Shown piece after piece: positions 448-42,300 of a DNA stretch of 64,000 bases (positions are counted from its first letter, which is position 1; every line of letters begins with the position of its first letter). The translations under genes and the position numbers were made by a program. This DNA is from Naganishia liquefaciens (taxonomy: Eukaryota > Basidiomycota > Tremellomycetes > Filobasidiales > Filobasidiaceae), in contig BLZA01000024.1 in assembly GCA_013423385.1 (NCBI GenBank), positions 59,371-123,370 of the forward strand. The letters are read 5' to 3'. Below the pieces are notes generated by a model. It was given only the letters and a program-made list of their open reading frames with translations. It made no database searches and was not told the origin of the DNA.

Positions 448-2783
448 ATGACGCCGGTACTACCCTTGCTCGCCCTCCTCCTTACGGCGACTGCTTCGAC
501 TGCCCTGCCTCAGCCTTCCAAACGATGGGCTCGACCGGTAGTAGACCTTGGCTACGCAAGATATCAAGGTGTCTACAATGAAACGACCGGCATCCAGACA
601 TTCAAGGGTATGCGATATGCCGCACCGCCCGTGGGCGACCTGCGATGGCGCGCACCACAGGATCCAGAGAACGTTTCGGGACTGCAGGATGCCAGTACCT
701 ATGGCGACCAATGTCTCCAGGGTACGGTTGGGGCAGGAGCAGGCGCTCCTGTGGCGGGCGTTTTGTCAGCGGCAACCGGTACATTTCCCACAACCTCGGA
801 AGACTGTTTGTTCATCAACGTCTTCGTCCCTCCGAATGCTACCATCGGATCGGGATCGTTGCCTGTCGGAGTCTATATTCATGGTGGTGGATATAGCCTG
901 GGAAGCGGTGATGACAGTGATCGTGGGTATTCTTACGTGCGTATCGAGTAGTCGCTGACGGTTCCATGCAGCCACTCCTCTGTTCGCCCAAGCGAATGGC
1001 AATTATATCTGGGTCACGATCAACTACCGTCTCGGACACTTTGGATTTTTGGCAGGAAAAGAGGTTGCAGAGGGAGGTGCCTTGAATGCGGGTCTTCGTG
1101 AGTAAAAGTTGTGCTGAATGTCAAGTTTATTAAGACCGCTGTCGATCAGTCGATCAGCAGGCGGCTTTGCAGTGGGTCCAGAAGAACATCGCCAAGGTAA
1201 GCACCGCAGGGGTATGTGCCATGTGGTTCAAGCTAAAGATCAACATCAATGCAGTTTGGTGGAGATCCCGGACATGTCACTATTTGGGGCGAATCTGCTG
1301 GAGCAGGATCCATCTACCAACAAGTCGGTTCTCTTCTCGCCTCTCACTCATCAACTGACCTTTCCGCTCCTCATAGATCGTGGCAAACGGAGGTAACACC
1401 CAGCCAAAGCTGTTCAACGGGGCCATCATGGCCTCTCCGTTTGAGCCGCCCAACTATTACTACAACGCCTCGGTTCCCCAAGTGAGGGCGGAAACCCTGG
1501 CTTGACGCTTCGCACACTGATTCTGCGACGCCAGGCTGCCTATAATCACCTCATCAGCGCCGCAAACTGCACCTCCGCTGCCGACACACTTGAATGCCTG
1601 CGAAAGACCGATGCCAAGCTACTCACCGTTGCTGCCTATCTTGACACATTTGAAGGTCCCAAGGGGTGCGTTCCCTTCTTTCCGTGTCAAGAAATATATT
1701 GACAGTCGGCTGCAGTGACTGGCTGTATACACCCGTCATCGACGGCACATTCATCCAAGATCGGCCAGAAGCACTGCTTGCACAAGGCAAAGTCAACGGT
1801 GACCGCGTCTGGATCACCCACAACTACAACGAGGTGCGCGTTTCGTCAGACCAGAGCCATGAACATCAGTTGACAGCGATACTAGGGCCTTGTCGGTGGT
1901 GGCGCCCCGGGTGACGTGCAGAGTACATTTACACCGCAGGACATCGGCAATTCGACGACAGCTCAACGATCTTGGCTTTCGTCAATCTTGCCCAATCTCG
2001 ATAATGCATCTTTGACCGCCGTTCAGGATGCGTACACCGCGGAGACCTTTGGATCATTACAGACAGCCACGGATCTTATGTGAGTTGCATGCACCATTGC
2101 GGTCCCCGCAGTATACTGAGAGCTTCTCGTAGCTATGGCGAAGGTATATTTGGTTGCGAGGCATTGTGGATCTCGCAGGCGTTTACGGGCAGGTCATACC
2201 TGGTCAGTCGACGTGGATAGCGGTATGCTTGAACTCGACTGACGTGCTGTTGGCCCTACAGGGATGGCTGGTCATTCCTGGTCTTGATTACCATGCTTCA
2301 GAGTATGTGACTGCTAGCACTCTTTCATCATCGTGCTGATCCCATTCGCCTTTAGTTTGACGTTGTCATTTGGTGGCAAGTCGTCTGAATTTTCAAGGGC
2401 GCCATCCAGGTGCTGACTTTGCGTGCAGCCGCGACCCTTGAGGGAACGCCCTACGTTTCCATCTCGAAGCAATGGATTGAGAATGTCAACTCGTTCATCA
2501 CTGATTGCAAGTAGAGGTTACAAGTCTTGAATGTTATCGCTGAAGCGATATCGTAGACACGGTTATCTCAGCCTATGCGCCATCAACATTCGACACGGGT
2601 TCTCCGCAGCAATTTATTGTTAACGTTACCACAAACTTGGCGGCTGAACTCTCATATGAGCCCATTCCCGCAGACTTTATCTCTCGCTGCAAGTGAGTAG
2701 TGATCTTTGCGCTCGTTTGGACATTGGCTGACACGACGCGATGTAGCTTGTGGCGATCATTAGCGCCCTTGATTCCGTTCTGA
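448..2783 (+). CDS. Secreted type-B carboxylesterase/lipase, multi-exon
   Basis: Alpha/beta-hydrolase of the carboxylesterase type-B family (cholinesterase/lipase-like), expected to hydrolyse ester bonds outside the cell. The ATG at 448 opens a signal peptide rich in Leu/Ala (MTPVLPLLALLLTATASTAL). Family landmarks follow in order: FKGMRYAAPPVGDLRW near residue 52, SEDCLFINVFVP, the oxyanion-hole motif YIHGGGY, and the nucleophile elbow GESAGAGS encoded around 1290-1311. The catalytic His probably lies in the DYHASD segment near 2290. The gene is cut by about ten short introns, for example from about 936 to 971, and the reading frame closes properly across them. The last exon reads out as LWRSLAPLIPF and stops at 2781-2783. 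No break was seen. The natural substrate cannot be told from sequence. Confidence 0.88.
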
Positions 2784-10739: not shown

Positions 10740-12924
10740 CTATTTGTCAAACTGCGCATATTGGTACTCGAAAATGTTCCACGCGGCATCGACCTGAGTG
10801 GTCGTCAGTCCATTCAGAGCCTTGAAGTTGTTCCTGCGACAAAAGAGTCAGCCAAGTTTGCGTTGAGCAAGAGAGAACTCACCAATACTCCTCCATGCTG
10901 GTTGGGTTTGATCTCATCGGATCATACAGCACCTTGCGTCTGCTGAGACCCGACAAGGCATCCGAGAACCCGGTAACTCCCCTGCCCAAGTCGTTTCCCG
11001 TGACAATCGCATTGCTATCGCCCGCCAGATCAATCAAATCCCGAAGCACTGCCGCCACGCGTCCTTCATCCAGCGAAAGATCCCGATCGGCTTGAGGGAT
11101 GTTGTCGCAGTCATAATTTTCAACCTCCGTGCATGTCCCTCCTGTCAAGGGGTACGGCCAGAAGCAGTAAGCCGTACCTCGGCCGCCTGCCGGTGTTGTT
11201 TGTTCAAATCGGGATCGCCAAAGCGAGGAAATTCCAAAGGCCGTCGCATAGCCTTCCTTGAGCGCCGAGATGGTAGAGGTGACGCCTGGCTGACAAAAGC
11301 CGTGGTTTTTGCCATCTGGTCCGGATTCAAGCGTTGCATAACCACGACTGAGGTAGTGGAACCAGTGACCGTATTCGTGAGCGAGTGGCGACGTGGCTGT
11401 CGCCTTGTCGGGATGGACATTGATATACGTGTCGGCCGGGTCCGACGCGGGCCTAAAGTAGTTGGGTCCGACTTCACCGGGGAACCACACATGGGGCAGC
11501 TTTTCCCCGAAATTGTGAACCTTGGTCTTTGCAAACACCCACGAGTTGAGAATCCGGTCTTGCACGTTGAAAACGTCATTGCTGGCCTTGTTCATAAACC
11601 GGTAGTCAAATGTGCCCGACCCAGCCTGATCGATCTCCCAGTCGAGTGGAATCGAACGCCATCGCCAGAAGAGGAATGTCGCCCCATTGTCCTCGGACGT
11701 CGACACCCTATACTTGTCCGCATCCAAGGAAACGATAATCCTGTAGATGGTCAGCGGCGCTTCACCATCCCCGACGATGGGGAATCGGAACCTGGCAAAA
11801 CCGGTATTGTCTGTCTTGGCGATCGCAGAAATCTTGCTTTGGCCGGCGATACCGAACGCCGTGACCTTGAGTTGTCGGATCGGGACGCGCGCGGTGGATG
11901 GCCCGTAGAAAAGGTTCAAATTGAGTATCGTCTGCAGTACCTGTCGCTTGTGGTGCGATTTGTCGTGTTCGTTGGCCGGACAAGGCGGACACCAAGGATG
12001 CGCCGGCGAGGGATCTTGCTTCCAAGGCTTGCCATCATTGTTCCGCTTTGTTGCATAGCGACACTCGGCAGGCTCCTCCTTCCATGGTCTACCGTCATTG
12101 TGGCGTCGCCAGGAGTGAAAGTCTCGACAGTGTTTGGGCGGCTCTGGCTTGGGAGGACAGTAGCATGGATCGTCGGGCTTCGTAGGATCAGGCTTGGTAG
12201 GATCAGGCTTGGTAGGATCAGGCTTGGTAGGGTCAGGCTTGGTCGTCCCGGGTGTCACATCCTCGGCGGGCGGCTCGACGACTGTCCCCTCCGGTGGTGC
12301 CTCGGGCAAGTCGGGATCTTGATCATTGATCACCGTCTCTCCGCTCGTATCAATCGGCTCGGCAACGCTCTGCGCCAACTCGGTGTCATATTCCGCATGG
12401 ATAATGACGTTTTCTTGATGTGCGGCCCTTGAAACGTTGAGAGGTTGCCAGGCGTTGAACTCCGGGTCATAGTACGTGACAGCGAGACCATCAATGGATT
12501 GTTCGTTGGCGTCGCCGTCTATCACGGTCACTGCGGCGCGGAAGTTGTACACGGGGACCTCCGGGGTCGGCACTGTGATGTTGAAGACTGTGAAGACATC
12601 GTACGTCGGCAAGTCGTAGACGTAGACCGACTGATCATAGACGACGGATTCTTGAGGCGGAGAGTCCTCGTCGTAATCGTACGGCCGCGCGTATATAGTC
12701 AGAAAAAGTCCCTGTGCGCTCGATGCGTATCGATTGATCGTGACGGGTACGGAGAATGTCCAAATCCGTTCCGACGGGGCAGCGAGGGCGGCGGTGTTGG
12801 CGAACGGATCGGTGACCGTGATGCCGGTAATGTTGATAGCAGCTTGAAAGGCGATGTTGCCGTCATCAGCTGATACCAGGTATAGACAGGCGAGCAGGAG
12901 AGGCAGGTATGTGCAGAGCGACAT
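10740..12924 (-). CDS. Secreted HExxH metalloprotease, paralog A
   Basis: Predicted secreted zinc metalloprotease of about 712 residues. I do not recognise the exact family. The ATG at 12924 opens a signal peptide (MSLCTYLPLLLACLYLVSA). Residues of about 20-210 form a beta-rich N-terminal domain. A Pro/Lys/Asp linker follows, with a five-residue TKPDP tandem repeat, and then two RxNDGxPWK motifs. A dibasic KRQ site (kexin-like) precedes the C-terminal domain. That domain carries HEYGH at residues 516-520 and, 37 residues after the second His, an EGYATAFG motif (Glu557). This layout suits a gluzincin, with two His and a downstream Glu as zinc ligands. One short intron after EEYW joins a terminal exon ending YEYQYAQFDK-like with the stop at 10740. 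The intron position and last exon match the paralog at 27904-30009. The substrate is unknown. Confidence 0.8.
12176..12243 (-). repeat. 15-bp tandem repeat coding TKPDP linker
   Basis: Four full 15-bp units and a partial fifth (plus-strand unit GGCTTGGTAGGATCA) encode the TKPDP linker of metalloprotease A. Units are nearly identical, which points to recent slippage or unequal exchange. Confidence 0.9.
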
Positions 12925-12990
12925 TGTGATGGCTGAGGGATGTCGTTCACAGGGATTCCTAGTGAGCGAGACTCTGCATTTTTCGTGGGA

Positions 12991-12997
12991 TTATATC
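12991..12997 (-). promoter_or_regulatory. TATA box of metalloprotease A
   Basis: GATATAA on the minus strand, 66 nt before the ATG at 12924. Confidence 0.4.
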
Positions 12998-15128
12998 TCC
13001 CTCGGGCGGGCTCGAGCAGAACAAGCCAGAACTCCTTGACAGTGGGCGGATTCAGGACGAGATCTGCATCCCAGTGGTCAGTACTCGCTCATCAGCAGGA
13101 CACGGTCGACCAAACTTACGTGATCGGATGCGCAACCACTGCCCCGCTTTGGACTCTCCCCTCTCCTCGCGGACGGACCGTGCTCATTGGGACATTCTTC
13201 TTCCGAGGCCATGTTCTGTATGTGTAATGAGCCATGTCATGGGCGAACAGAACAGCCCATCTTGCCCATCCGTATCCGCGCTGCAGGTCACGTTGTTCCA
13301 CAATTCAAGGGGGCAGCCAGACTGCTATCACCACGAGCTTGCATCCGAGACATGGGCTTCCACACTGCCAAGCGTGTTCTCTGCTTTGAAGAATAAAGCA
13401 TGTCAGCAGGTCACCTCTTGCGCGTCGCGGGTGACAGCCTCGCGGAGGCTGCCAGGAAATGGGGACACATGTGGGAAGCGCTGAAGAAGGTCTAGAACTG
13501 ATGTGCTCGTTTGCAGCGACGCCGCTGGTCAAAGGGTATGCGCACGCGATGATTTACGGTCGGATCCGAGTAAAGACTGTATCGCTGCAAGCAGTGCAAG
13601 CTATGCTAGCCGAGCTGCTGGTCGCGAAAACAAAAGGGAAAGCTGTGCGTTTCCCCATGTCGGCCCGGTTAGCAAGCTTACGACTTTCTTTTTGCCTTCT
13701 TTCCCAGTATTCACGCCACACATGACCCGCCGATTTGCCAGCTACTGTGCCTGAGAAACCTGGAAAGCGAGTCCGAATGAATGATGTCCTCGTGACACGT
13801 GCGGGATGACTAGCGATCCAGGGCGAGCAGAGTGAGGTTGACTGCCAAGGGTAGGCGGGCTCCAGGGAGATAGCTCATTTTTTCGGCTTTTCCTGAACAG
13901 TACTCGTGCCAGGATTCGACAACTTTGTCATTGGTGCAGTGCGTATTTCAATCCTTCTCGCTGAGACTATGCACGCATGGAGGCTGTTTTCCTCGCGCAT
14001 GGCTCGGGAAATAAGACCAGGCAAATCAACCACCTCGCAATCATTCTCGGGACGTCCTCGTCCTTGAGATCAGCTTTGAAAATCGATAGCTGTAATGGCA
14101 GTGGTATGTATACTCACGCCATCGGGTGGCTTGATCAACATGCCTGTGAAATCTGAGCGAGTGGTGAGTTTTCATAGAATGATGAGTGAGGTTCGTGTCA
14201 CCGAGACGTCCCTGCCTCTCCAAAGCGTTGTATTCTTCCTTGAACATGCCATACAAACACGACCAAAGATCTGGTAGGAGATCTCTTTCTGCGAAAGTAA
14301 GAGCTCACGGGAAGTCGATAAAGTTGCCCGCATAGATTGTGACAAGGATCGCGTCACAAAAGGCAGCTTGAATGTAACAAGCCGGCTACAACGTACAACA
14401 GGGGATGGCAATACTATATTCTATGGAGTTATTGCTGTAACTTTACCTCTGATACATTGCGCCATGAAGCCTCCTCATTACAAAGTTCGTTATCACCACG
14501 TTCGATGACTGTATCGGCCACAGATGTATTTCTGACGTAACGATAGTTCCGGATCTATGCCTAGCGAGAATGGGGGGAATTGAAAGCCACAACGCAAAGA
14601 GCCTCGCCGTGACTGTACTTTCCGCTCTGTCGAAGCGTAGGTCGCCTTCAGTGCCTTCAACTTGTAAAGATATGGCGGTTGTCCGTTTTATTGCCCACAC
14701 GCTTCCCTCCAGCACGATAGGCTCTCGGTCGAGCAATTCGTTTACTCGAAGCCTCAAAAGGTCATACGGCTAGCCAAACGCCGGGCAGAGCGTCCTTGAA
14801 CGATTTGACATGATTAATATAAAAGGGGAGCAGGTCGACGATGAAGCCGCGCAATACGTTGGAAGATAGATTTGCGCGGACGAAGACGTCAATCCGGTTC
14901 AAAAATATCTCTGGGTGCAATGCGGCTTCACAAGCAAACCTTTTGAATGATCTCCGGCTTAGACATCCTGTGCAGACAATGCTGAAAAGCAGCATCAACT
15001 ACCCGTTCAACAAACGCACTGTATCCCAGTGCGTCCAATCCAAGCGAAGATGGTACTTGCAATTTCTGGAGGTCACCTTGTCTTGCTTACGGAGACAACG
15101 AGGATCGCGTTGACGGCCGGCCAGCTTC

Positions 15129-15890
15129 AAAAGCTCAAATACGTCGTTCGACGCTTGCGGAACTTTTCAATCGTCCATGAATAGCCCGATCTCCGTATCG
15201 AGAAGCCGGACAGACGTTCTCCCAGCTGGAATTGTTTGATGAATCGGGAAGTAGCGTGACGCTTGGGCGAATCGACTTGTCCGACAGCTGGTAGGGTTCA
15301 CGAAATGTAGTGGCAGGGAGAGAACGTTCGTTTCCAGGCTGGCTATCCGACATCCGGTTTTGATCCGCTTCTTGCACGTCCCCTTGGGGACTCGTTTGAC
15401 GTGCCGGCGTGGATGCAATGATACTGAACAAGGTGGCGGTGGTCATGGACTTGTAGAGGAAGATCTCTATTTCCACGGAGCCATCCTCTAATGAATTGCG
15501 ACAAAAGTTTACGGCAGCCATCAAGCTCGACAACCTGCACGGCAGCCATCAGGCTCGACAACCTGATCTCGTTGTATACGCAGAGGACGATCTCGGAGCC
15601 AACGAGAAATCTTTCGTGGTTGGAAATCAGAAATGGCCCGAAAGCCTTTCGTGTCGGTGATGTTGAGCTTACTTTCTTTGTGAAGCGGAAGCGATAGGGG
15701 CGATGCGGACCGTCCTCATACCCACGTGCATATTCTACTCGTTGTCCAAAAAGACGGTCTCGTAGAGAAAAGGCAAGACGAGCTCCGCAACGTCGTGATT
15801 CGCGAAACGAAGCGATGCGAGAGTGCCATACGCGTGGAGTCTGGCGAGGTGGCAGGCAATGACGTATATCACGTCCAAATTGGATCCGAG
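15129..15890 (-). pseudogene. Possible decayed F-box-like gene
   Basis: The minus strand at about 15740-15885 encodes an amphipathic leucine-rich segment: VIYVIACHLARLHAYGTLAS, followed by a stretch ending LVLPFLYETVFL. Its spacing resembles the F-box-like helices that open many basidiomycete LRR/F-box proteins. It ends at a stop. Protein-like sequence continues in another frame (YEDGPHRPYRFRFTKK and onward through about 15350), which suggests missed introns or frameshifts. Downstream reading is also disturbed by a 28-bp tandem duplication. If real, the family would act as a ubiquitin-ligase substrate adaptor. The assignment rests on pattern only. Confidence 0.25.
15511..15566. repeat. 28-bp imperfect tandem duplication
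   Basis: Two adjacent 28-bp units begin ACGGCAGCCATCA(A/G)GCTCG and differ at about two positions. They lie inside the F-box-like relic. Confidence 0.85.
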
Positions 15891-16962
15891 AGCAACCATC
15901 TAGAGCGCAAGAGACTGATCAGCATGCTTCGACAATGTGGTCTTGAGGAATGAGTCTTACTGCTTCAGCGCTCACAGGATGAGTCTTGCCGAGCTGACGT
16001 TCACGGTTGGACTGGACACGCTTGCGATTGGTTCAGGTACTGACTCGGTGTCTCGTGAACACGATTGGTTCGTCGACTGTAGTGATGAGGAAGAAAGTCC
16101 AGAGATCAAAACAGTGGAACAAAATATGTCTATACAAAGTATATATGTGCTCACCGGCTCGTTCAAGTACTCCTATCGGGAAATATCTACTCCTTCATCC
16201 AAATCGGCCCAAGCTGTCCGTCGATCCAGGCGAATCCGCCTGTACCACGGAGAGACTCATCTGCCTTTGTCCCGCGTTCTCCGTTCCAGTGGCCTTCTCG
16301 ATATCCTGCGAAGGATCTCCTTTGGATGCCTCATTGCAGGAAGAATATCGCTTTTGTTCTGCAACACCTGGAGTGTGAACAGATGTCTCGGATTCATTTA
16401 TGGACAGGCGCGTCCTCGCCTGTCTGCTTCAGGTTGGCCAATTTTTTGCTTGTCCTGAATGCCGTGTTGGACGAAACTGTTCTGCTTTCATTTTGCCAAG
16501 GTGATTGCCATGCAGCAAAGTCTTGAGCCGAGTGTCGATGGTTCACAACCATGTATCCCGAGTTGCGAGGAAAGACTGCTGTATAGACCGAGCGCAAGAT
16601 GGAAGGCGAGTCGACGCGTCTCGCTAACACGTACCAGCTGATAATCAGGCTGAGACAAGAGCAGCCGCTTGACGCTACTTCTCTTTCCTCGAACCGTATT
16701 GCGGGACAATCCCTTCGCGGGAGCATTCGGGCGTGGAAGCTTTGAGAGCGCCCGCAAGGGGAGTTCCTTTCCGCCGAAGGTCAAAGAATCCCTCGAGATG
16801 GTATGAACACACGCTTGCAAGCAGTTGCATAAGACGTCGCAAAAGGTACAATAAGCCTTCCCCAGCGTCTGAGCGCCGGAGCTTGTCATCATGCTTATTG
16901 CCCAGTCGCTCAGGTTGATCAAGACCTCTTATACTCCTAATTATCTCCACAACAGTCAAGCG

Positions 16963-17649
16963 ATGACTGACAGCCGTGGAGATTCAGAAAGTCTCAAGAT
17001 TGAAGCCATGACGGGCTTACTGGAAAGAATGCTGGAAACTTTGGACCAGATCACTGGGTGTCTGAAGGGCTTTGGGGCGGAAGAGAATCTGAGCAAGCGT
17101 TGGATGTCAGAGCTAAGATGCTTTCGCGGCTTTGCGACGCCTGAGATGATGGTCCGAATCATCAAGAGCGATCCTCGCGTCTCGGGCGAATTCTTCAGTT
17201 GCGCGTACTCGCTATTCGCCACACCGGTCTCGAGGGTTTGCCGTCGCCCTCCGCATCTGTTAAGCTTCATTCGCCAGTATATTCGGTCACATGATATAGA
17301 GGATGCAGAGCCCAAGGTCCGAGAATTTGACGAATACTGCGATATAGCACTTGCTCAATGGAGAACGATCGAAGAAGCATTGAATGTCACCGCCTCAGAA
17401 ATCAAAGAAGGCAAGGAAGGCTTTGTCGTACTTCAGATCCGAGGTACGTTCAGAAAGGAAGATGAGGACAGTATAGAGCAAGCTTCAACGGCAAATGAAA
17501 CACACGGCAGCTGTACATGGACGCTTCACTTCCCAACCCACATCTATTTGAGGGATTTCGCGAAAGAACGATCTGTTTCCTGTGTCTGGAGCCATCACAT
17601 CTCACAGAGTCCCTCGGTATCAGCACTTAGTCTCCTCTACTCGAGCTGA
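16963..17649 (+). CDS. Hypothetical protein, no known domain recognised
   Basis: A single open frame of 228 residues from the ATG at 16963 (an upstream in-frame ATG at 16891 would add 24). The composition looks protein-like. The N-terminal half is helical and rich in Leu/Glu (LLERMLETLDQITG), a basic/hydrophobic middle follows (FFSCAYSLFATP), then an acidic helical part with an aromatic-rich tail. I see no signal peptide, membrane segment or catalytic motif. It lies alone between gene-poor stretches, so it could be an orphan gene or a chance frame. Confidence 0.4.
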   Translation: MTDSRGDSESLKIEAMTGLLERMLETLDQITGCLKGFGAEENLSKRWMSELRCFRGFATPEMMVRIIKSDPRVSGEFFSCAYSLFATPVSRVCRRPPHLLSFIRQYIRSHDIEDAEPKVREFDEYCDIALAQWRTIEEALNVTASEIKEGKEGFVVLQIRGTFRKEDEDSIEQASTANETHGSCTWTLHFPTHIYLRDFAKERSVSCVWSHHISQSPSVSALSLLYSS

Positions 17650-18357
17650 CAGACGACTCTGGGGGATCCTATTCCATACGAGCAATGATCGCGATACTCG
17701 CTCGCAAACCGCACGAGAAAACAGTTTCGGGTGTGATGGTGTGTCGCGGATCCTCTCCTCTCTGTAGTGATTGAAGACGGCACAAGGCTTGTAATGGTAC
17801 TTGTGATGAATGATGCCCTGTTCTGGATCTTTCGAGATAGTAAGCAAATCGAACCTGGAAGAGGGAATTACGGGAACCATACCGCATATTGTCCGTCGAG
17901 CCGCTGTCTGGAATCCCTGCCATCACTTGCCCCAACCCTAACCCTCATAGCTCCGGAAGGCCCTTGAAGGCGGATCATGGCGACGCGCTCGGTGTATTCC
18001 AGAAGGGACTTTTGTCGAGAATGCATCAGACGATTTGCAGAATGAGTGCAGAATGTTGGAAAGGAGAGGTTCACTTCGTTCAGCGGATCCCCTTGGACGG
18101 CTTGATGAGGCACAACAACTTGACCAATTATTCCATCATCGTGATCCAAAAATCCTGCGCTCGCAAACATTTCAGCGTCATGTCTGAGCAGTGAGAATCA
18201 ACAGTTCCCGTATCAATTTGTTACCCATTTATACATCTAGATCGTTTGCTCGAATCTCGTATACAACTTGCAAACCGTAAAGGATCTCTCGAATCTAGCT
18301 AGACTCCCGAATCACTGCAGATTCTTCCACTTTTATATTATAAGGTCATCCCAGCTT
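17650..18357. other. Intergenic 3' of MIOX
   Basis: No gene recognised. It contains a short telomere-like string (CCAACCCTAACCCTC) at about 17933-17947. Confidence 0.5.
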
Positions 18358-19573
18358 CTACCAGTTGATCTTCTCCGGGAAAAACTTTGCAATTAATCCT
18401 TCATAATATGGTCGCAGCTCCTCGGTGTTTGGTCTGCTGTCCGACTTGGAGTAAAGATCGTATGGGTTGAAGGCAAGGACATCTTTCAATGCCTGTTCGT
18501 CTTCTTCTCCATTCATCAGATGACGGTAAGCTCCCTCCCGGTGCCACGGATAAAAGGAATGGTATCGAATCATGTTCAGAGCCGCTTGTGGGAGTGACGA
18601 TTGCCCTTTGCACACCATGTACTGGGAGACGCAATGTAAGCAGATGTTGCTGTAGACCAGGCCGTGACACTTACAAGATATTCGTCGTGTCCCCAAGTGA
18701 TCATCACATTCTCCAAGCCGCAGTGCTCCTTGTAGATGCCGTTCTTCTGCGAGTACACGGTGTGGTGGAGATCGGGATTCGCTTCAAAGGTTCCTGGGTA
18801 CTGAGTGGCGTTGTACGTCAGTATGTCGCATCTTTGGGCATTAGGCAATCCTCTTGTTTGACTCACCACAATCTTATCCTGAGGGAACTCGCATCCAACG
18901 ACAAAAGTGTCACCAACGACATCCCAGCTTCCTTCACTTCCGAAAAAGTAGAGGAGTTTGCCAAGATCATGAACAAGTCCCGTCACCTGCATCCACTCTG
19001 GCTTGCCATCCTTTCGCATGGCTTCGGCGGTTTGCAAGAGGTGTTCGATCTGAGTCGCATCGGTGTCAGGATCGGACGGGTCCACAAGCTTGTTGAGCAT
19101 CTCCATGGCCTCCCAGACACCCATGACCGCTCGAGGCTTTTCGAACGCAGTCTTTCGGGCTGCGACATTGAAGGCGACTGTTTGCTTGGTGTGTTGTTCG
19201 CTGACGAACGACGTTGTCAGTTCGAGGTAACGTCAGATGTGATAAAAGCTGATCAGACTTACAGGTAGAATTTTCGCGGGGAATTGTCCTCGGAGTCGTC
19301 GTATTGACGGAAGGCTGTCTTGTCCTTCTCCTGATCAAACACCGCTGCCGTGTAGGCATCCACCTCTTCCTGAGTCGGAATGCCGTCACGTTGGGCTAAC
19401 AATTTGGCGACATTGATGTTATCGACTTGATCCGAGATTGCCTCAAACTTCAGGCCGTGAGGGTCTAGAAGAGGGAACGCCGAGCTTTGTCAGTCCTGCA
19501 AAGACGTCGACGCGTTTCGCCTTTGATGTGACTTACCGTCAGCGCGGGCAAAAGTTTGGGTAGCAACAGACAT
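18358..19573 (-). CDS. Myo-inositol oxygenase
   Basis: MIOX is a di-iron HD-domain oxygenase that cleaves myo-inositol with O2 to D-glucuronate in the cytosol. The start is the ATG at 19573 (MSVATQTFARAD), followed by a short intron. Family blocks are all present: RKFYLEQHTKQTV, IEHLLQTAEAMRKDG (first iron-ligand His), WMQVTGLVHDLGKLL (His-Asp pair), NVMITWGHDEYLYMV, MIRYHSFYPWHREGAY (later His ligands) and LKDVLAFNPYDLYSKSD (last Asp ligand and substrate-binding Lys). The C-terminus FFPEKINW is the usual family end. Four or five short introns interrupt the gene. A TATA-like GGTATAAGT lies on the minus strand at 19651-19659. All metal ligands expected from the animal and fungal enzymes can be placed, so it should be active. 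Confidence 0.95.
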
Positions 19574-22500
19574 TTTGAGTGAAATAGTGGTGCAGAAGCG
19601 ATGGTGAGGGTGGCGGAAGAATAGTTACCCCTCCGCGCACTCATGGCATACTTATACCTATGCGAAAACATCGACGAAGCACCCAGCATCGGAGCGGACA
19701 CTGGGAACTCGCTCCAATTCGGGGTGGTGTGCGTAGTAAGCTGAGCTGCTGCGCGGTTCATTCTGAATGCACCGAAGTGGTTCAACCAACATTGATCATC
19801 AGGCCTGTCGATCGTTTTCCGACTCTCCGAAGGCTCGGAAGCTAGTTCGGGGAGCTGCTCGGGGGATTTAATGGCGAGACGTGAGTGCGAGCCGGCGGGC
19901 GAACAGCTGGGCGAACTGAATGGCTCTCGGGGATTTTCAGCGAAACAAGCAAGAACCGGCGGTGCTTAGGGTCGTATTTTCAGGTTTAGCACAGTTCTTA
20001 AAGTCTCTCGAAATGACCACCTCGGCCATAATCAACACCTAGATCGCATTTGCGCCTGTCACGAAACGTGTTGCGAATCCCGAACTAATACTCTTTAATA
20101 ATTGCAGACACTTTGTCAACAACAACCCCTTGTTGCAGGCAAGGTATCTGGTATCTGACGTATGGCCCATGGTGAACACTCTGGACAGCGGACGTTTGAT
20201 CTCGGTGTCTCCCATTCCCGCAATGATTCCCCATAGTGCATTCGGGCACGTGTTCCGGGACATCCAGAATGATACAGTATTCGTGGAGGGTATCTGTAGT
20301 CCGGTCCATATTTTCGCACCGAGGTAGAGGTGGATGAACTGGTGAATGCCCAACCCTGCAGGTATACAGGAGTTGTCGTACCGGTGCGGATGACGGCTTC
20401 TCACATCACGGCTTTTCGTGACATCTCGCGGGTCTCGGTTGTTTATCAGTAAATCACTGAGCTGTGGTGTTCCCTACGTCATCAGCAGCCGAGGCCTACA
20501 CGTCCGCATCAGCATTGTACCACACCATCTCTTGCAGCAGTCACGGAAAATGCACAGTGGTTTTTGTAGGGGGGGTGCACAATGATAGCGGCGATGGAAA
20601 GGCTCTTATTCCTCGGGGCACTTGTCGGAACATCTTCCGGAAACGACAGAAAGAAGTCAAGTGGCCCTTCGTCTCTCTTACGGCAACCAAGACCCTGCCA
20701 TATTCATTCACATTTCAGCGCAACAGTCGAAAACCCCGAGGCCGGATGTTCCGCGATTTATTCCAATCATGTTGCATTGTATGCATTCATAGATGCACAG
20801 AAAACTCTTGGTGCAGTACACTTCAGCCGTCATCTTCAAAAAGACACACCGTACCGGATGAATTCTGGCTGCGCAAGCAAAATCAGAACCGCCTTAAGGT
20901 CCAGACGACTGTGCGATGTAAATGAAGAAAGAAGCCAGAAGACAGGCTTTACATGGCGATGGTCTGTCAACCGAAGCCATCCTTGTTGGCGCATCGAAGT
21001 CCCGGAGCGATACACCACGGGCCGTTCGACCGTTCTGCAAGAAACAGAAACCTGCCATGATGCCGCCCGTCAAAAAGTCACCGCCTTGTTATCCAAACTT
21101 GCACCAAGCGCTGATTCATGGCAGATCAACATTGCCGATTCGAAGAGGCAGGGAACGGACCGCAAGTTATGAGCGGGAACCTTGAACCTGATCCAGGGGG
21201 CGACTCGTTGCCAGCGAGACGAACATGATACGGGGGATAATGGGTCTTTGCATTTTCCCGCCGGATAGTCCAGGCACGACAACCTTGACGGTCCTTAGAT
21301 CTCGGAGTCGCTGCGCCGGGGATATACAGAGTCGGCGATCCTTCGTGGCGCAAGAAGCGAATGACGAGACCTTGACATGCTATACGATAGGGTATAAGTC
21401 GTACCTTCCATTCAGGGTTAGGGGTTAGCTTTTCATTCGCGGTTCCACGTAGTATGCGAGGGTCTTGGCGGAGTAAGGGTAATTATAATGAGCAAAAGTT
21501 CATTGATGTCGTCGAGGCCGAATCAAGGACGAGAGAATTGCCCTGGAGGCCTGAAGGCGAAGCGTGATCGGATTCGATATGAACGTACCTTGATTCCGTA
21601 TGAAGCGGTCCCTGGGTTTCCTGCCATCTTCTTTGTCATCTTCGAACGTTCCTCATCTTGATCGACGGTTGCATAGGACTGAAGGCGTTCCTTTCAATTC
21701 GTGCTCTCGAATTCGCGACACGTGTTGTCCTATCGGTGATGGGACAGAGGATGTCATTCCTCTTTGAGGGGCACGAACAAGATCTTGAATATCATTGATA
21801 ACGTTTGTTCCCGACACAAGCTTTAGAGCAACGCCCCTGCGGAGCCTTGGATTGTTTTAGCCATCGCGACTGGCGATAACCAAAGGACCTAAATAGGTTC
21901 TCTGGAGAAGCCGCAGGAGACCTGAAACGATGAGCGATTCGTTGATGGTTGATGCCATTTCAAGGGTCAACATGAAACGCCGACGATTTGCGATGGTCAG
22001 GATCCTCCGACGTAAGGGAAGTTTAGCGTCTTGTCTACTAGAGACGGTTCTCATCATTGCATCTACAACCATTCCATCCATCAATGGATGTTGAGACTCC
22101 TTGTCTTCCGGCAACCGCACCCATCGCTCGGCTCGGCACCGGTCCGCACATCCCAAAACCCTGACATCATCCTCAGGACCTCAGAAGCTCCCGACTCTCG
22201 CAGCCACTCTCGCCTTGCTTCTATCAATTTCTCTTGCATTCCCATGAAACCCTATCGTTTTCGAATTTGCCCCCCCCGCAAAAAAGGAAAAATTACCCTG
22301 TCGCGCGGCCAAGAGGCGGTGCGGAGCCAATCAGAGGGGACCGGTAAAGTGGGTTAGGTAAGACTGTTTGGGGGTCACTGTGGATGGCGATGAGGGCTCT
22401 GGGGGGCTGAATGTGTGGGCGTATTGATATGTTTGTGATAGGTTGGGAGGGCATGGACGACTTGGTTGGGTCTGACAGTACAAGCAAATACCTCAGTAGA

Positions 22501-23362
22501 CTGAAAAGCCATAGACAGTAGCATGAGGGAAATCCCATTCGATCCGCCGTGGTGCACGACCCTCTCTCTGCGCCGTATCGATATCGCGTTTTTTACGCCA
22601 TTCGCTATCTTTCTCTTCCTCCAATGTATGGAACAAGAGCTGGAACAACTCTGGCGGAAACAAAACGCCGGCCCCCAAAGGCGCGGTGAAATTTGAAATG
22701 GCTCTCGCCCCGCCCCCGCCCGACCGCCCGAACGCAGGATAAGCTCTGGCTGGCTGGGCTGGCTGGGCTGACTCGAGCAGCGCAGACGCATAGATACGCA
22801 GACGTCCCCCGGTATAGCGATTGCTTGCGTGGTGGATCTTTACCCTCTACATAACTCCCTTCTTGTCTCCCTTTCTCGTCGTTTGACGTCGTCGGTTTCA
22901 ACGTTTACTGTTTGGTGCTTTTCCCCCGTTTTGCTCTGGTGAGTTTTCCGTCCATGACGCTTTTTCACGCCGGCGCGCAGAGATAGCCGTAGTGAGCCGC
23001 AGACCGGGATTCCTGACGCTTCCCTGTTCTTCCTTTTTGCGCTCGCCTCTGCTGGATATATCGTCTGCGTTGCTGCAATCGCCCCCTTAATCGTCCGCTC
23101 ATCCAGGTCTTCCCGATAAACACATAAACTTGTCAAGGTGAGCGGCATTTCTGTCTTGGCCGATTTTCGACGATGTGGTCGTACGACGTGGCGTGCGCAA
23201 AAAAATTGGACGACAACGAGGAGAGGACGATTGGTGGAGAGAACGGGAAGAGGCGTGTCGAACGATGTCCGATTCGCCGTCGATGGCTTCGCAGTCTCAG
23301 TCACACGACCACATCGACCTTGGCGCACAGCTTTTCATGCCGCTGCTAACTCCTTCTACCAG
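19574..23362. other. Long intergenic between MIOX and glutamine synthetase
   Basis: This stretch holds the divergent promoters of MIOX (-) and glutamine synthetase (+). No gene could be supported in about 3.8 kb. It contains a telomere-like GGGTTAGGGGTTAG at 21415-21428 and a CCAAT box at about 22327-22331. A GC/CT-rich stretch after 22.6 kb probably includes the long leader of the synthetase, possibly with a leader intron (a GTGAGC donor near 23137). Confidence 0.5.
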
Positions 23363-24616
23363 ATGTCTGCTCTGATTCCCGGAAAGCGATCGGATCTTTT
23401 GGATCACTACATGGCCTTGCCCCAGGGTGAAGCCATTCAAGCCGAATGTTCGTCTTCCCCCCCCCGAAACCCGATTCAAGCCACGTACTAACCCTGAACA
23501 CGCAGACATCTGGATCGACGGTACCAACGGCATGCGATGCAAGACCATGACTCTCTACAAGGAGCCCAAGTCCGTTGCCGACCTCAAGGAATGGAACTTT
23601 GACGGTTCCTCTACCGCCCAGGCCCCCGGCCACGACTCGGACATCTTCCTCCGTCCTGCCGCCATCTTCAAGGATCCCTTCCGAGGCGGCAAGAACATCC
23701 TGGTCCTGTGTGAATGCTACAACAACGACGGCACCCCGAACGCCACCAACAAGCGTCATTTCGCCAAGAAGGCCATGGACTTGGTCGCCGACCAGGAACC
23801 CTGGTTCGGTCTCGAGCAGGAATACACCTTGTTCGACGCCGATGGACACCCGTACGGTTGGCCCAAGCAGGGATTCCCTGGACCCCAGGGTCCTTACTAC
23901 TGTGGTGTCGGTGCCGGTAAAGTGTACGCCCGTGATTTCATCGAGGCCCACTACCGAGCGTGTCTGTACGCCGGTGTCTTGATCTCCGGTATCAACGCCG
24001 AGGTCATGCCTTCCCAGTGGGAGTTCCAGGTCGGTCCGTGTGAGGGTATCCAGATGGGCGACCACCTCTGGATGGCCCGATTCTTGCTGTTGAGGATAGG
24101 TGAGGAATGGGGAATTACTGTAAGCCGTCATTGCGCATCCCCCGTCATGCGTTATTGATGCTGACTCGTATCCGTTTCACAGCCCTCGTTCCACCCCAAG
24201 CCCTTGACCGCCGGTGACTGGAACGGTGCCGGCTTGCACTCCAACTTCTCCACCGTGGCCACCCGAACGCCCGGCACCGGTATGAAGGCCATCGAGGAAG
24301 CCATCGAGAAGATGAGCAAGCGACACGCTGAGCACATTGCCGTCTATGGTGAAGACAATGACTTGCGATTGACTGGCAAGCACGAGACTGGTCACATCTC
24401 GGATTTCTCTGCCGGTGTTGCCAACCGAGGCGCGTCGATCCGAATTCCCCGTCATGTCGCCCAGCAGGTGAGTATCTTGGCCGCACTTTGTAATCGCCAC
24501 TGGAAACTAACCCATTTCCGCAGGGCTTTGGATACCTCGAAGACCGAAGGCCCGCCTCCAACGCCGACCCATATGAGATCTCCCGAATCATGGTCGAAAC
24601 TACCCTCATCCTATAG
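23363..24616 (+). CDS. Glutamine synthetase (GSII)
   Basis: ATP-dependent condensation of glutamate and ammonia to glutamine in the cytosol, the central step of nitrogen assimilation. The spliced product is about 355 residues, the usual eukaryotic type II size. The ATG at 23363 opens [20 protein letters not shown]. Intron 1 (23448-23505, 58 nt) has a perfect TACTAAC branch site and a GTTCGT donor. Family motifs seen: [23 protein letters not shown] (substrate loop), [11 protein letters not shown] (metal-binding Glu residues), [45 protein letters not shown] (ATP site), [10 protein letters not shown], and [15 protein letters not shown] (catalytic loop). Intron 2 follows GEEWGIT and intron 3 follows HVAQQ. 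The stop is at 24614-24616. No defects were seen. Confidence 0.97.
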
Positions 24617-27600
24617 TCTTTCGCGCCTACTTCCAATTCTTTTCAGCGTTGGAACGTAAACACGGTAGACGGACAGGCTAGCAGGTTACCGGGCGGGGTT
24701 GTAGCGTAGGGATCTGTGTTTCACCGCGATCTTGCGCTTCAATGGACCATGTCGGATTTCTTCTCTTCATTCTCTTCATCTCTCTTCATCTTTTCACTCG
24801 TTAACCAACGTCTCGGTCGGGCGTCGTGTCGCGTTACTTCTCGGCGGTCATGCTGGATTTAGGTGGCCCGGCCTCGGTGCATAGCATTGGGAGTCAGTTG
24901 TATGGTTGCATCTCATTCAGCACCCGATTATCAATCAAATCAATCTCACTCTGTGAGCGGTCTGTTCATCGTGATACTCGAGGGGTCCTTCGTAATGGAA
25001 TTATAGCTTAGGCACTTATCCTCGGTGGCAAATGCGAATGATGGCGGTCCGAGCGTCAATGTTGCGTTCGACGTGTTTCCGGGACGTACTGGTGACCCAT
25101 ATATACGACCAGGTGTTCATTCATGAGAACTTTGCGTGCAAATTCGGTGTTTGGGCCAGCAGGAAGACGACTTGGGGCAAAACAAGACTTGTACCAAAGG
25201 ACTTGTACCAAAGGACTTTGACAAGCGCCAATTTCTTTGATCGGATGCGCGGCATCCAGTTAAATATTATGAGCTCTTTCATGTCCAGCAAGAATGAGGC
25301 TTCCGAGTGCCGCCCGAGCGAAGGTTCGCGCTGGAGACGTCGCCGGGAAGGGACAGATAAACAGCTCACAGCATGATTCGCGCAGGCACTGACGCATGCT
25401 TCCCACATTAATTTCCCTCGTTTCCTCTCGGAATCCTTGACAGTATCGCATCGTTTCTCGCATGCGATGCACATTTTCGGACGATGGCAAATCTCAACGT
25501 GGCGTGTCGTAGCGTCAGGGCCGTTACGTAGAGAATGTTGTGGGAGACGTTGGTGGTGGATAAGCGATGGAGTCGCGTCGAAGCGATAACGGACGGGAAG
25601 CTGAAAGCGCCCAAAGGATTTCAATAGGTAAAGTGGGTTTCGGTCGATATTGGGCAGATCCGACCTGACGATAGCCAAAAAACATCACATGTTCACGCGC
25701 CCACATCCATCCGGATCCCATCCTCTATGCGCGGTTTCCAGAATTGATCATGACAGCCGACTCTGATCAAGCGTTCACGACATCCGTACCGGGATCTTGC
25801 CGAGTCCACCTGCACAAGCTCCTGTCCTCTCACACGGCATTCGGCACCGTCCTCTTACAGTCCGTTAGGTACTTATCTTTTGATCACGCGCCATGTCCGA
25901 AGCCGTCGGCGAAGAGGAGCAAGACGGGATTATGCAAGCCCTGTTGGGTAGAGATGGGAAAGGCGCTGATCAGGCAGGTGGAGACGTTGGCGTTATTCAA
26001 ATGCGATGAGGGTGCATATCTGTTCGCCGACAAGTCGGATGTGCACTGATTTACTCATCTGCGACCCCATCCATCGCCTGTCCCTTACTTCGATTCGACG
26101 ACAATCAAGGATAAACGCGACATTGATACCGTGATGGAGCTACTCAAGCTATCCGATAGACACGAATCCGCGGAAAGTCGCCGAGATGGATACACAACTC
26201 CAAATCTTTCAAGAATTTGGCGAGAGACGCAGGACGCCTTGCCGCGGCAAGGAAGTGTATAATCCGCATACTTGAGAGATGGAAGCCAACCTGGACCAAA
26301 TGGCTAGGTCCATTGACGAAGTGGGTCTTGGGGTTGCTCAAACAATGTTCATGCCGTTAGAAACTCATCCTCGCTCCACTCCGTTCGCGCTTCTTGCCCC
26401 TTTGCATCCTGGTTTGTTGAGCGCCGACCCAGACTTTTCCTCCTAGGGGATCACCCGAAATCCATTCGCGAAAGACTCCTCGACCACTGGAAACGAATCT
26501 ACGTTGATCACGTCACCCAAAACTCTCAGATTTTGCCTTTCGATCCGCGACCGTCACCGGCCTCTTCATTTATTCCAGTGCATTAGCATGTACGGGGGCG
26601 CGACTGGGTTCATGAAAGTGTCTCAGAGGGAGGAGGGACCGGTGTGTAATACCGTAATGTTCCGAGGGAATGGTACGCTAGGGAGACGATGAGGCTTGCG
26701 GAGGCGGCATTCGATGAAAGGCTCTCGACTTAACGATATGAAGATACGGCATTATAGCGGAAAGGACCTGCGAACTTGCATACTGGCACATCAGAGGCAT
26801 ATTTGGCGTCACTCCAGTGGCGCTAGTAAAGTGCCTTGATCAAGATATATAGATTGCGAAGGACCTGAGATGACTTCCGGTAGACAGTAAAGATACTAAG
26901 CGCACGAAAATTGCTCATCTTTGAGTATCGCGTCACGCTGGCTGTATACAAGGTACGCGACACTTTGCCACAGCGTAGGCAAGAGCTTACTGCGTGTCGG
27001 AATGGCAAGGGATAGCTAGATATAATCTCAGTCAAGCATGTCGATAAAATCGCTATGCGGTCGTCGGACATTGGATAAAGTGTGTCCACGTGAAATCGTA
27101 ATCGAGGGTAGATTTACCATGCTCGTCAAAAGGCATTACAGAGCTCGTTACAGTCCAGGAAATGATCATTCAGTTGCTGCCGTTCGAGAGTAGTCGAAAT
27201 ACCAATGCGACATCGAGGTCGAGGCTCTTCTTTCCTTAGGCAACTCTCTCGCCTTCGGAATCCGTCGGTTGCCAAAGTTGGGCGGTGCTGACAGGGAAGG
27301 CCTTGGCATCCCGGAATGTCTCGGATGCAGGGGGTATAGCAGTCTGCATCAGTTATGGATGCGAGAAGCAGAAGTGTACATGGTGACCGGATGCAGATCG
27401 CCGTGGATTCGAGGACACCGCTTGAGTCAGGCATTTCGAGCCGGAAGTCGAGGGAAGATGGCAATCGTCGTCAGCCGGATATATAGAAAACGCATCCGCC
27501 TTCTGTCCGCTTTCTCATGGGCTTGTTATCTATCTGGCGGAGATGACAGATGCAAACGGGCCCCATCCGGCTTTCGTGTAAGAACCAAATCTCGTCGACG

Positions 27601-27903
27601 GATCCAACGTTTGAGCTGTGTCGTATCAGCGGAAGTCATGTGTTTTACCAGCAGTCAGATGTTTACTGCAGGCTGGCCTTCCGGTGATGCGGTGCCGTGC
27701 AGATCAGCAGGACAGCGGAATTGAAGCCGGATGGAAAGGAACTAGGATCGGCCCGTAAGCCACCCTCGTCTTACTCGCATCTTCACCGCCTTCTGCGTCT
27801 GAATCACCATGCCTTTCCTGCAGTGGTCAGAGAGATATAAATTTGTCACGAGCATGAAGAGGCATCTCCGCCAAATGGTCACCTAACGGCAACCAGCACC
27901 AAC
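24617..27903. other. Gene-poor intergenic stretch
   Basis: About 3.3 kb between glutamine synthetase and metalloprotease B. I found no open frame with recognisable domains, no RNA gene and no clear repeat. The last ~70 nt hold the metalloprotease promoter. Confidence 0.5.
27836..27842 (+). promoter_or_regulatory. TATA box of metalloprotease B
   Basis: TATAAAT, 61 nt before the ATG at 27904. Confidence 0.5.
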
Positions 27904-30009
27904 ATGTTTCCCAAACCTATGCGAATCCTCACTTTTCTCGCGGTAGCGTGTCTCTATCTCGCCCATGCCCGCCAGGTCAACATCGGCTTCCAGGTCAGCA
28001 TCCACACTGCTGCCATCGAAGTCTTTCCAGCAAATCGGGGACAAGCGAATTTCCAAGTCGCCCGTCCGGTATTGGTCGATTACACGTTTATCGTCCCGCT
28101 AACGGTCTTCAGACGGATGGCGTCCGACGATGGGCTCGCCGTGAGGCTCTATACCCGGGCATACGACTATGACGAGGATCAACCTCCAGAGGAAGTCCAG
28201 GTGTACGAGGAATATATCTTCCTTGATGGACAAGGGTCGTACGATCTTACAGCCGCGTTCAACCTTACCACCAATTCGACTGCCAACGTTGTCAATTACC
28301 TTCGTGCACAGGTCGATCTCGCCGATGGTACTCGCTTCATATCGACCGTCACGGGTGTTGTCGTATTGTCTTTCAATGCGTCATCCGATTCCTGGATGCC
28401 TATGGAGCCTGCCGTTTATGCTCATCAAGAAAACGAGGCGCTCCATGCAGAGTACGAAGGCGAAATGTCTCGGGCAACGATCGCGCCCATTGACACGACC
28501 TTGGATACCATCATTCGCGGTCAGCCTCCAGACCTACCTGTCGAAAACGGAGGAATCGTTATCGTTGACAATCCTCCGATCGAGACTGGACCGGGAGACA
28601 AGAACACGACAATTCCTCCGCCCGACAAAAACACGACAATTCCTCCGCCCGACAAAAACACGACCGTTCCACCGCCCGACAAGTCTCCTCCCAATTGCAT
28701 TCCCGCCAAGGCCTGGAAGCGCAACAATGACGGCAAGCCTTCCCTTCCTCCCTGCCCCGTTATCCCGCCACCGCCGTGCCCCTCAGGCCTCAAACACGTC
28801 CCAATCCACGCGCGGCAGAATGTGGGTGCCGTAACGACGTTGCAGTTGACGCTCACGTACGGGCCGGCCACATCGCCGAGGCCGATTCAACAAGTTCAGG
28901 TAACAGCGTTTGGAATCATCAATGACGAGGTTGTTCCCGCGCTCGGTTCCACGGACAATGATGGCGTCGTCACGTTACTGTTCCCCTCCTTTGGTGGCGA
29001 CTCTGGAGTGCTCGTGTACAAGCTCTCGGTCTCGATGGACACGGAAAAGTATCGCATCTCCACCTCGCGGGACGTCGGCCAGACATTCCTCTTCTGGCGG
29101 CTAATTTCGGTGCCGTTGACGTGGGAGATTGATGCCGGTGATACTGGAGCATTCACGTATCGGTTCATGAACAAGGCCACCAACGATATCATCAACGTCC
29201 AAGACCGAACGCAGAATTCATGGGTCTTTGCCAAAACCTATGTTGCCAACTTTGCCAGCAAGCTTCCCAACGTCTGGTTCCCGGGCAACTTGACCGACTG
29301 CTACTTTAGTAACGGTCCGACCCTCGACCGAGCATACATCAACATCCACCCGGACAATGCCAACTACACCTCGGCGCAAGCTCACGAGTACGGCCACTGG
29401 TTCCACTTCCAAGCCCGCAAGTTTGCCGGTATCGATTATGGCTTGATTGGCACCGAACACAATTTCTGTCAAGCCGGCCCGCCAAATTCGCCCGTTGTGT
29501 CGTTGACGGAAGGCTTTGCGACGGCGTTTGGTCTTTCGTCACTTTGGCAGAGTCGATTCGAGGAGACGTCGTCCCCGGGTACGACGGGCACGGGGTTCTG
29601 CTTCGTCCCGGGGGATTCAAGTCAGTGTCTCGATATCGAGCAATACAACTGCTCGACGATTGCCGAGCCGGACCGCAACTTGTCGACGGATGAAGGACGA
29701 ATTGCCGCGTTGCTGAGGGACTTGATCGATGCGGGTGGCGATAGCAATGGCGGAGACACGGGCCTCGGCAGAAGTGGGTTTACGGACGCGTCGAATCTCC
29801 CGCGACGAAGGGTGCTGTATGATCCGATGGTGAACAATCCGGCCAATATGCAGCAGTATTGGTGAGTCAACGCTGCTTAGCTCTGTTCCGGGTGCTAATG
29901 CTCTACTTGTAGGAACAATTTCAAGTTGCAACCCTCGTTGACGACGGCCGATCTCGATGCTGCGTGGAACAACTTTGAGTATCAGTATGCGCAGTTTGAC
30001 AGGGACTGA
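27904..30009 (+). CDS. Secreted HExxH metalloprotease, paralog B
   Basis: Paralog of the gene at 10740-12924, with the same architecture over about 685 residues. A signal peptide (ILTFLAVACLYLAHA) opens the protein. A beta-rich N-terminal domain shares the YDYDEDQPPEE and VYAHQENEALHAEYE blocks with paralog A. The linker here is a nine-residue KNTTIPPPD repeat, followed by one RNNDGKP motif and an HARQ processing-like site. The catalytic domain carries HEYGH at residues 494-498 and EGFATAFG with Glu536, 38 residues after the second His. The block YRFMNKATNDIINVQDRTQN is nearly the same in both. One intron follows QQYW and the terminal exon gives NNFKLQPSLTTADLDAAWN, with the stop at 30007-30009. 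It is a predicted extracellular protease. Several NxT/S glycosylation sites are visible. The family name is not recognised. Confidence 0.8.
28600..28680 (+). repeat. 27-bp tandem repeat coding KNTTIPPPD linker
   Basis: Three exact-length 27-bp units encode (KNTT[IV]PPPD)x3 between the N-terminal and catalytic domains of metalloprotease B. Confidence 0.9.
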
Positions 30010-39314: not shown

Positions 39315-42300
39315 TCAGTCGACCCGGTAACTCTGTGGCGGAGTAAGCGACGTGACGGGGAAGGTACCGATAGTAACCATCTCCAACACCATGCCCGCAT
39401 TGATACTCCACAACTTGAGCGTGTGCCATCCGTTATCCTGAGCGGCGGGCAGGCTCGTCGTGTTTCGTCTGACGCTAGCAGCGACGACCGACAACCAGTC
39501 GGGCGGTTCATTGCCAGCTGAGCTCGCGAGGGGGATCGGCTGTACGACCGTCGGAGTCCCGTCGTCGAGCTGCAGAGCGAGTTTGAACGGATCACCGTGG
39601 CGATAGTTGTAGAACGGACCGAGCCAGACGGTGACGTTCCAGAGGTTGGAGGATCCGGCGAGAGAGGGCAAGGCGTAAAAGTCGTACTCGAGGACAGGAC
39701 CGGCGCCGACCGAGGCGTTCGGGTGGTTAGGAGGCAGGGTCGTCATGGCGTTGCCGCTCAGACCGTAGCCGGGAAGCTCAGACCACTTGGCTTGGTCTGT
39801 GCTGGTCATTCGTGTGGCATTGGTGGCATGCATGGCAATGTAGGAAGGTTCACCTTGGACAAAGCCTCCCTTGTGCGAGGCCACGTCGGGAGCGGTCCGA
39901 GGGTCGACGGAGAGCAGAACGGTAGTCGAGCTGTTTGAAAACTCGACTGCAGAGGGCGTCAACTTGATGCCGGCGTAAAGCATTGACGACGTCGCGTTGG
40001 CAGGTACGGCGTCCCAGTTGACGGATACCTCGACTCGGCAGTCCGCCGATCCGTTACCACCGACAGACCCGCTGGAAGGGGTGACTGTCAACCACGAAAC
40101 ATTGGCCTGGGCGGTGTAGGTAAAGTCGACCCAGGACCCGCTCGAGATGTCGATCCATCGGCTTGACTGGGCACTGTACCTTGAGAGCGGAGGAAGCGTG
40201 AGCGGCGGGCAGTTGTAACCGTCGGGGCAGTTGTTGACATTGTCGCCCGGGTTGGCGCCCTTGGAACCTTGAATGGTGACACGCATCGGGCTCAGCAGTG
40301 CACCGGGACTGCCCTTGTCGCCATCCATTGGCCAAGCGTCCATCTGCATTTCGGTGACTTGGGGCAGACTGTTTCGCATATTTTGCTGCCAGTAGTATTG
40401 GTTGATGTGTGGTTGACTGAAAACGGTCAGTGTGACTCTTCAATTTGCTGCTCAGACTTACGACATCATTCCGTCCCACTTGTAGTCCAGCAGCGAGTGA
40501 TATTCGTTGGTCAGTTCGGCATCGCACTTGAAGTGGTATCGCGCCTGATCAGCCCAATAGTTGGCCGACGTTCGTGCTTGGCTGCCGTGCAAGTTGGATC
40601 GACCAGCGGCAATGTAGAGCTTGTTCAAGTTGGCCGACGCCCGGGCGGGGAAGGCAACGAGCTGGAAGAAAGCCGGGTACTGGGCGTCGGATACGTTGGC
40701 CTGAAGCTGATCGACAAGCGAGGTGATGTGGTCCCACTCAGCCTCGACGCGTTCAGCCTCGCGGTTCATTGTTAACGACCACGTTGTCGAGTTGACGAGT
40801 TCCGGCTTGATTTTACCGTTGAGAGCATTGTAGGCCTGAATGACAAAGGCAACTTTTTGAGAGTCCAAGTTGGGGAACGTGCGTGCAGCCCACGCCTCGG
40901 TCCATACGATCGGATCGGGCGAATCAGCACCGTTGGCAAGCAAGCTCTGGGTGCCTTCGTATGCAAGGTCGAGTGCAAACTCGGTTGCCACCTCGATCGG
41001 CTTGAGGTCGCCGACATTGATCATCAGCATGCGATCAATGCCCGTAGTTTGGGCCACATTGAGTTGCTCCCACGCCTTGGCAAAATTGATGGTCGAAATC
41101 CACTTGTAGTTTCGCGGGTTGCCGACGTAGTCGTGGTGCCAGTATAGACCTGAGCAAGGTCAGCCTGATTTCCCGGGGAGAAACTTGAAGGCTCACCTGC
41201 TCCACCGGTTCGGTTTCGCTCGTTGGGCGACGGCACTCTTCGAATATTTGACCAATTGTCATCGGTCCTTCCGAGGGGGTTAGCAAAGGGTCCCCCACAC
41301 GCCTCGGACGTACTTACCAGAGCAGCATGACATCATCGGGTACCTGCAATCCATCATCGTCAAAGTACCCCTGAACCTCTTTGTACAGACACCACAGCTG
41401 CGGGATCGTCTCGGCCGGTCGGCCTGAGTGCGCGGCCGAGAGGATGGCTCTCTGATCGGCAACAATGTTTTGCAGAATCTGAACGTTGGCGCCGGGAAGG
41501 GGCAAGTCGCCGTTACCGCGCATGCCGACGGTGAAGAGGGTGTCGTAAGGTGCAGCACGTTGGGCGCCGTACGTCCAGTACTTGTCGAGCGTGGCCTTGT
41601 TCGAGGTGTAGTTCCAGGGGCCCGTTTCGAGATTCCATTCCTGCGAGGCGTCAGTCGAATTTCCAGAGAAGGGAGGGAAATGACTTACGGGTGTGTTTCG
41701 AGCCATGGGTTCTTGGTGGGACGTGCCGTACTGAAACCAGGTCAGCGGCGTTTTGTGACAGTGTGCGGCGGACCTACGATGATGCCCATCTCGTTGGCAA
41801 GAACTTGGTTGGGTCCGGCGGCATTGCGTCCGTCTGTTCGGTTACCCGGCAGAGCCGGCAGTCCCGCGACGGCAAACATGTCGGCCCACTGCAGGAACAT
41901 CAGCCATCGAGTTCACGAATAAAAACGCGAGCATACCATTGCCGGCCACAGCATGTTGGCCTTTAACCTCAACAGTAACTCGAACAGATGCCCGTACATG
42001 TCGACCGTGAAACTCTGTCCGAGTGGATCCGTCGTTGATGGATTGTTGCCCTTGTGGAACGCCTTGTTGGCCCAGTTGGTCAGGCCTGGCTGTTCGTCGT
42101 TGAGGAAGACACCGCGGTACTTGACGACGGGCGAGGCGTGCGAACAGGGAGAGAGCGCGAGCGAGGTGTGGGATTGAGCGGGAACGTCGGCCCACCTGGC
42201 GGAGAGGGTTGAGATGGGGAGGTTGGCAGAAGGGAGGATGAGAACGTACCAGTACCATGGTGAGACTCCCATCTGTTCGGAAAGAGTGTAGGCTGCATAG

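Follow-up and report, generated by a model that had tools for sequence, protein, structure and literature searches.

The 64-kb window analysed here (Naganishia liquefaciens contig BLZA01000024.1, positions 59,371 to 123,370) carries two genes, A and B, that probably encode secreted gluzincin-type zinc endopeptidases, the fungal branch of a family that has no name and is also present in bacteria and archaea. Each gene is complete with two exons. Gene A (711 amino acids) is on the minus strand at 10740..12924, with exon 1 at 12924-10883, a 49-nucleotide GT..AG intron at 10834..10882 and exon 2, stop codon included, at 10740..10833. Gene B (684 amino acids) is on the plus strand at 27904..30009, with exon 1 at 27904..29861, a 51-nucleotide GT..AG intron at 29862..29912 and exon 2, stop codon included, at 29913..30009. 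The coding regions are separated by about 15 kb (12924 to 27904), and coordinates and strands agree with the sequence-only reading of two intact genes in opposite orientation; the shared signal peptide that it described corresponds to a putative leader judged by eye, hydrophobic in A. That reading also placed an intron after the same codon in both genes. The codon and phase are indeed the same, but the intron lies inside the codon, interrupting the Trp codon of ..YW/NNF.. (..EEYW/NNF.. in A) after its second base.

Assignment to the gluzincins draws on a predicted fold, which aligns with thermolysin and fungalysin using a second-look aligner. In the model HEYGH (model residues 189–193) lies within helix 184–199 and the EGxA glutamate (Glu230) within helix 224–240, two successive helices. 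The predicted structure has both a thermolysin-like fold and an HExxH helix with a Glu on the following helix, two of the features by which gluzincins (clan MA(E)) are recognised, and this favours the gluzincin identity suggested earlier from sequence. A first fold model, built from A and B only, was discarded because its quality was too poor. The predicted zinc-binding HEYGH corresponds to amino acids 516–520 of A (11365..11379, minus strand) and 494–498 of B (29383..29397, plus strand), and the putative third zinc ligands are Glu557 of EGYA in A (11254..11256, minus strand) and Glu536 of EGFA in B (29509..29511, plus strand). Counted from the second His of the motif, this Glu lies 37 residues on in A (H520–E557) and 38 in B (H498–E536), as originally reported. 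Degenerate DNA encoding HEYGHWFH occurs twice in the 64 kb, compared with a mean of 0.00 in 100 shuffles. In the catalytic mechanism that we propose, His516, His520 and Glu557 (A numbering) would bind zinc, Glu517 would activate water, and the transition state would be stabilised by the family-wide His541 or another residue.

The family to which A and B belong has no name in the libraries searched (Pfam-A, NCBIfam, PHROGs and PDB sequences), in agreement with the earlier failure to recognise one. Gene A has no Pfam-A match at an expectation value (E) of 10 or below, a search in which the HMMER filters drop most weak matches, and gene B at the same threshold matches DUF7334 alone (E 0.24, under its cut-off). 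Neither protein matches NCBIfam or the PDB sequences, neither reaches the curated cut-off of any Pfam or NCBIfam family, and the sole PHROGs matches are at E 0.22 and 0.29. Literature searches by motif strings and topic gave no description of the family in titles or abstract openings among the matches listed.

These searches bear on whether A and B could instead belong, in strongly diverged form, to a named gluzincin family, with M36 fungalysin and M4 thermolysin as the most plausible candidates, an explanation that we consider unlikely. Peptidase_M36 (PF02128) leaves both A and B unmatched at E≤10, yet as a positive control it finds a separate fungalysin gene of the same genome, on another contig (C14), and only that gene (E 1.1e-125). 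The M4 Pfam models likewise match neither protein at E≤10, and no sequence match connects A or B with M4; identity in the fold alignments with thermolysin and aureolysin is 9–12%. In M4 peptidases the HExxH-to-Glu spacing is 19 residues, shorter than the 36–37 residues of A and B, and, unlike M4, A and B have a transthyretin-like domain in front. A further likeness, by description only, is to the Svx peptidases of soft-rot bacteria, which are reported to be secreted gluzincin metallopeptidases (PMC10815107), the type proposed here for A and B.

To look for relatives we scanned prokaryotes, with one genome per species, using a DNA pattern for HEYGH, a residue encoded T-(A/G/T)-(C/G/T), 28–38 further residues and EGxA. 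This gave 68 stretches, with the motif in frame in all 68, whose record titles include Bdellovibrionales, Chloroflexi, Planctomycetota, Nitrospirota, Acidobacteria, Methanosarcinales, Archaeoglobus and others. With a profile of A and B, three of the 68 score above the best of 1360 motif-keeping shuffles (30.3, 19.2 and 16.5 versus 13.9 bits). The top relative, a Cellvibrio protein (E 1.1e-6 when its whole genome is searched), has an alignment that begins in the HEYGH region, continues across E..VAA.L.DL.D and reaches a YW stretch near the C-terminus that it has in common with A and B; by eye, nothing in this protein corresponds to the fungal repeat linker. A profile-profile comparison with 22 prokaryotic proteins extends over 297 columns, transthyretin-like part included (E 3.9e-18), whereas a motif-only control, an alignment of four proteins that carry this motif, reaches 115 columns (E 4.2e-8). 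The motif by itself thus accounts for part of the score, but not for its extent. In the alignment consensus the unnamed prokaryotic HEYGH proteins share with A and B the order TDxxG, AFNIxD, HEYGH, one more His, EGxA and then E..VA..L.D..D; their identity to A is 14–24%. Conserved columns beyond the search pattern are shared along the mature region, and G375, H541, E620 and L627, all outside the pattern, are kept in at least 90% of 53 aligned rows. The alignments show that A and B are distantly homologous to these prokaryotic proteins along the predicted mature region. The earlier description of the family as fungal is unsupported, because relatives occur in bacteria and archaea.

No named family dominates the relatives either: among 43 rows at E≤0.01, any one Pfam family accounts for at most four and any one NCBIfam family for at most two, and the M36 models for two each. 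Weak Pfam names with one to four of the 43 rows each (CarboxypepD_reg, SdrD_B, ATLF, Peptidase_Mx, TTR-52 and M9, and likewise M36, M3, Mx1, fn3, M48 and FG-GAP_3) were not adopted; the CarboxypepD_reg and TTR-52 matches do agree with the transthyretin-like reading. Two prokaryotic members each have plasmid relatives in two records, annotated as 'hypothetical protein' or with no listed gene, the gene table being incomplete. In phages, tblastn with an A/B-derived query gave no relative.

Several observations weigh against a gluzincin family spanning fungi and prokaryotes. Scores of 65 of the 68 pattern proteins fall inside the shuffled range, and although 16 pass HMMER's own threshold, 13 of these 16 are also within that range. 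The relatives were chosen by motif, and part of each score is thereby built in. Among 144 genomes of the family to which the Cellvibrio genome belongs, only that genome itself has a match (E≤0.001). Searches that did not start from the motif in that manner gave no relative: tblastn confirmed none of 58 pattern stretches in genome contigs or 39 in viral contigs, and in plasmids the catalytic part of B has no tblastn match, while that of A has two, at E 3 and 9, which we treated as chance. As to structure, the fold model does not include the last 31 residues (exon 2), and it was the second-look aligner that matched thermolysin, not Foldseek, which found no match in the PDB at E≤0.001 and whose top rows correspond to the transthyretin-like part. 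The VIA-align comparison does not exclude families beyond its own list.

The domain layout of A and B is consistent with secretion in an inactive form. In A, the leader (about amino acids 1–18, by eye) and an N-terminal domain with no family match in the Pfam scan extend to about residue 207 (12304..12924, minus strand, limits inferred), and in B to about residue 212 (27904..28539, plus strand). The linker of A (11944..12303, minus strand) contains PDPTK repeats with RR-HNDGRPW and KR-NNDGKPW units and terminates in KR at residues 326–327, directly before Gln328; that of B (28540..28815, plus strand) contains PPPDKNTT repeats, KR-NNDGKP and, at its end, HAR before Gln305. The two linkers thus occupy the same place with different short proline-rich repeats, and N-glycosylation sequons are present in that of B (three) but not in that of A. 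A transthyretin-like beta domain, which would open the mature part, follows in A at about residues 328–400 (11725..11943, minus strand) and then a gluzincin-type catalytic domain at about residues 401–711 (10743..11724, minus strand), both with approximate limits from the predicted fold, which for the catalytic domain is without exon 2. The corresponding domains of B are at 28816..29034 and 29035..30006 (plus strand); all limits in B are approximate and, for its three domains, come from alignment with A.

On this layout, the product would be secreted as a proprotein (zymogen). The KR sites in the linker of A are possible Kex2 sites, and a Kex2-type protease may cut at KR before NNDGKP in both proteins and at KR before Gln328 in A, which would free the transthyretin-like and catalytic part. 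An alternative, which we regard as highly improbable, is that the linker is itself the product, with dibasic-bounded (H/N)NDG(R/K)P(W) units freed by Kex2 as small secreted peptides and the protease acting as carrier. There are two such units in A and one in B, each with a dibasic pair ahead of it; KR-NNDGKP is retained amid a diverging linker; and the genome contains two occurrences of the R-NNDGKP pattern, one in A and the other in B. However, the copies number only one or two, the B unit has neither a Trp nor a dibasic pair after it, and a plain activation site explains these features equally well.

Gene A and gene B have diverged considerably, with 47.3% identity over 670 aligned positions, distributed as 36.5% in the N-terminal domain, 34.8% in the linker, 41.7% in the transthyretin-like part and 58.9% in the catalytic part (304 positions). 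Nonsynonymous (dN) and synonymous (dS) divergence estimated by NG86 are 0.51 and 2.57 overall and 0.35 and 2.13 in the catalytic part; for the transthyretin-like part, which is short, dS is 1.08, and for the N-terminal domain it could not be computed. A second dN/dS method, YN00, yielded no value in any part. With dS near saturation the duplication appears to be an old one, and both copies appear to be under constraint. Self-blastn of the window finds A/B similarity inside the genes only and thus gives no sign of a larger duplicated block. The proposed local duplication fits the positions of the genes, but seems to be of old date. No third copy is found in the 19.4-Mb genome with the A catalytic part (E≤0.001) or the B exon-1 protein (E≤10). 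A further HEYGH, on C14 of the genome, is in a 199-amino-acid open frame that by eye does not resemble A or B. That A and B retain the fold as structural or binding proteins and are not proteases seems very unlikely to us: no activity is known and roughly half of each protein is not part of the catalytic domain, but HEYGH, the EGxA Glu, His541 and Glu620 are kept in both even though 41% of catalytic-part positions differ, and the last two are among the residues kept in at least 90% of the 53 aligned rows.

Ten other open frames of the window were scanned, among which a carboxylesterase, a myo-inositol oxygenase, a glutamine synthetase and a GH115 protein were recognised, and no pathway tying these neighbours to A and B was seen among the ten. 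The carboxylesterase domain is at 406-948 (plus strand), the myo-inositol oxygenase domain at 18579-19232 (minus strand), and the GH115 C-terminal domain, of a probable alpha-glucuronidase gene, at 39318-40439 (minus strand); GH115 enzymes and myo-inositol oxygenase both touch glucuronate metabolism. The stretches 55122-55630, 56092-56609 and 59622-59803 are related to one another, share one orientation and are pairwise 76–81% identical by self-blastn; they may represent a dispersed repeat or a gene fragment that was duplicated. An open frame at 62269-63999 (plus strand), in which a reverse transcriptase domain and a retroviral-type aspartyl protease domain were recognised, is probably a retrotransposon extending past the window end.

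We view the A/B lineage as a family-level branch within the well-known gluzincin clan, with a likely role in extracellular protein digestion. More broadly, the chances seem even that a single unnamed family in archaea, bacteria and fungi combines a transthyretin-like domain with a thermolysin-like one that carries HEYGH and, about 29–39 residues on, the Glu of EGxA, and that fungi added an N-terminal prodomain and Kex2-cut linker to give a zymogen. Counts of secreted proteases, which are usually based on named-family matches, miss any family for which neither Pfam nor NCBIfam has a model, and a profile from the present alignment would permit detection of this one across kingdoms.
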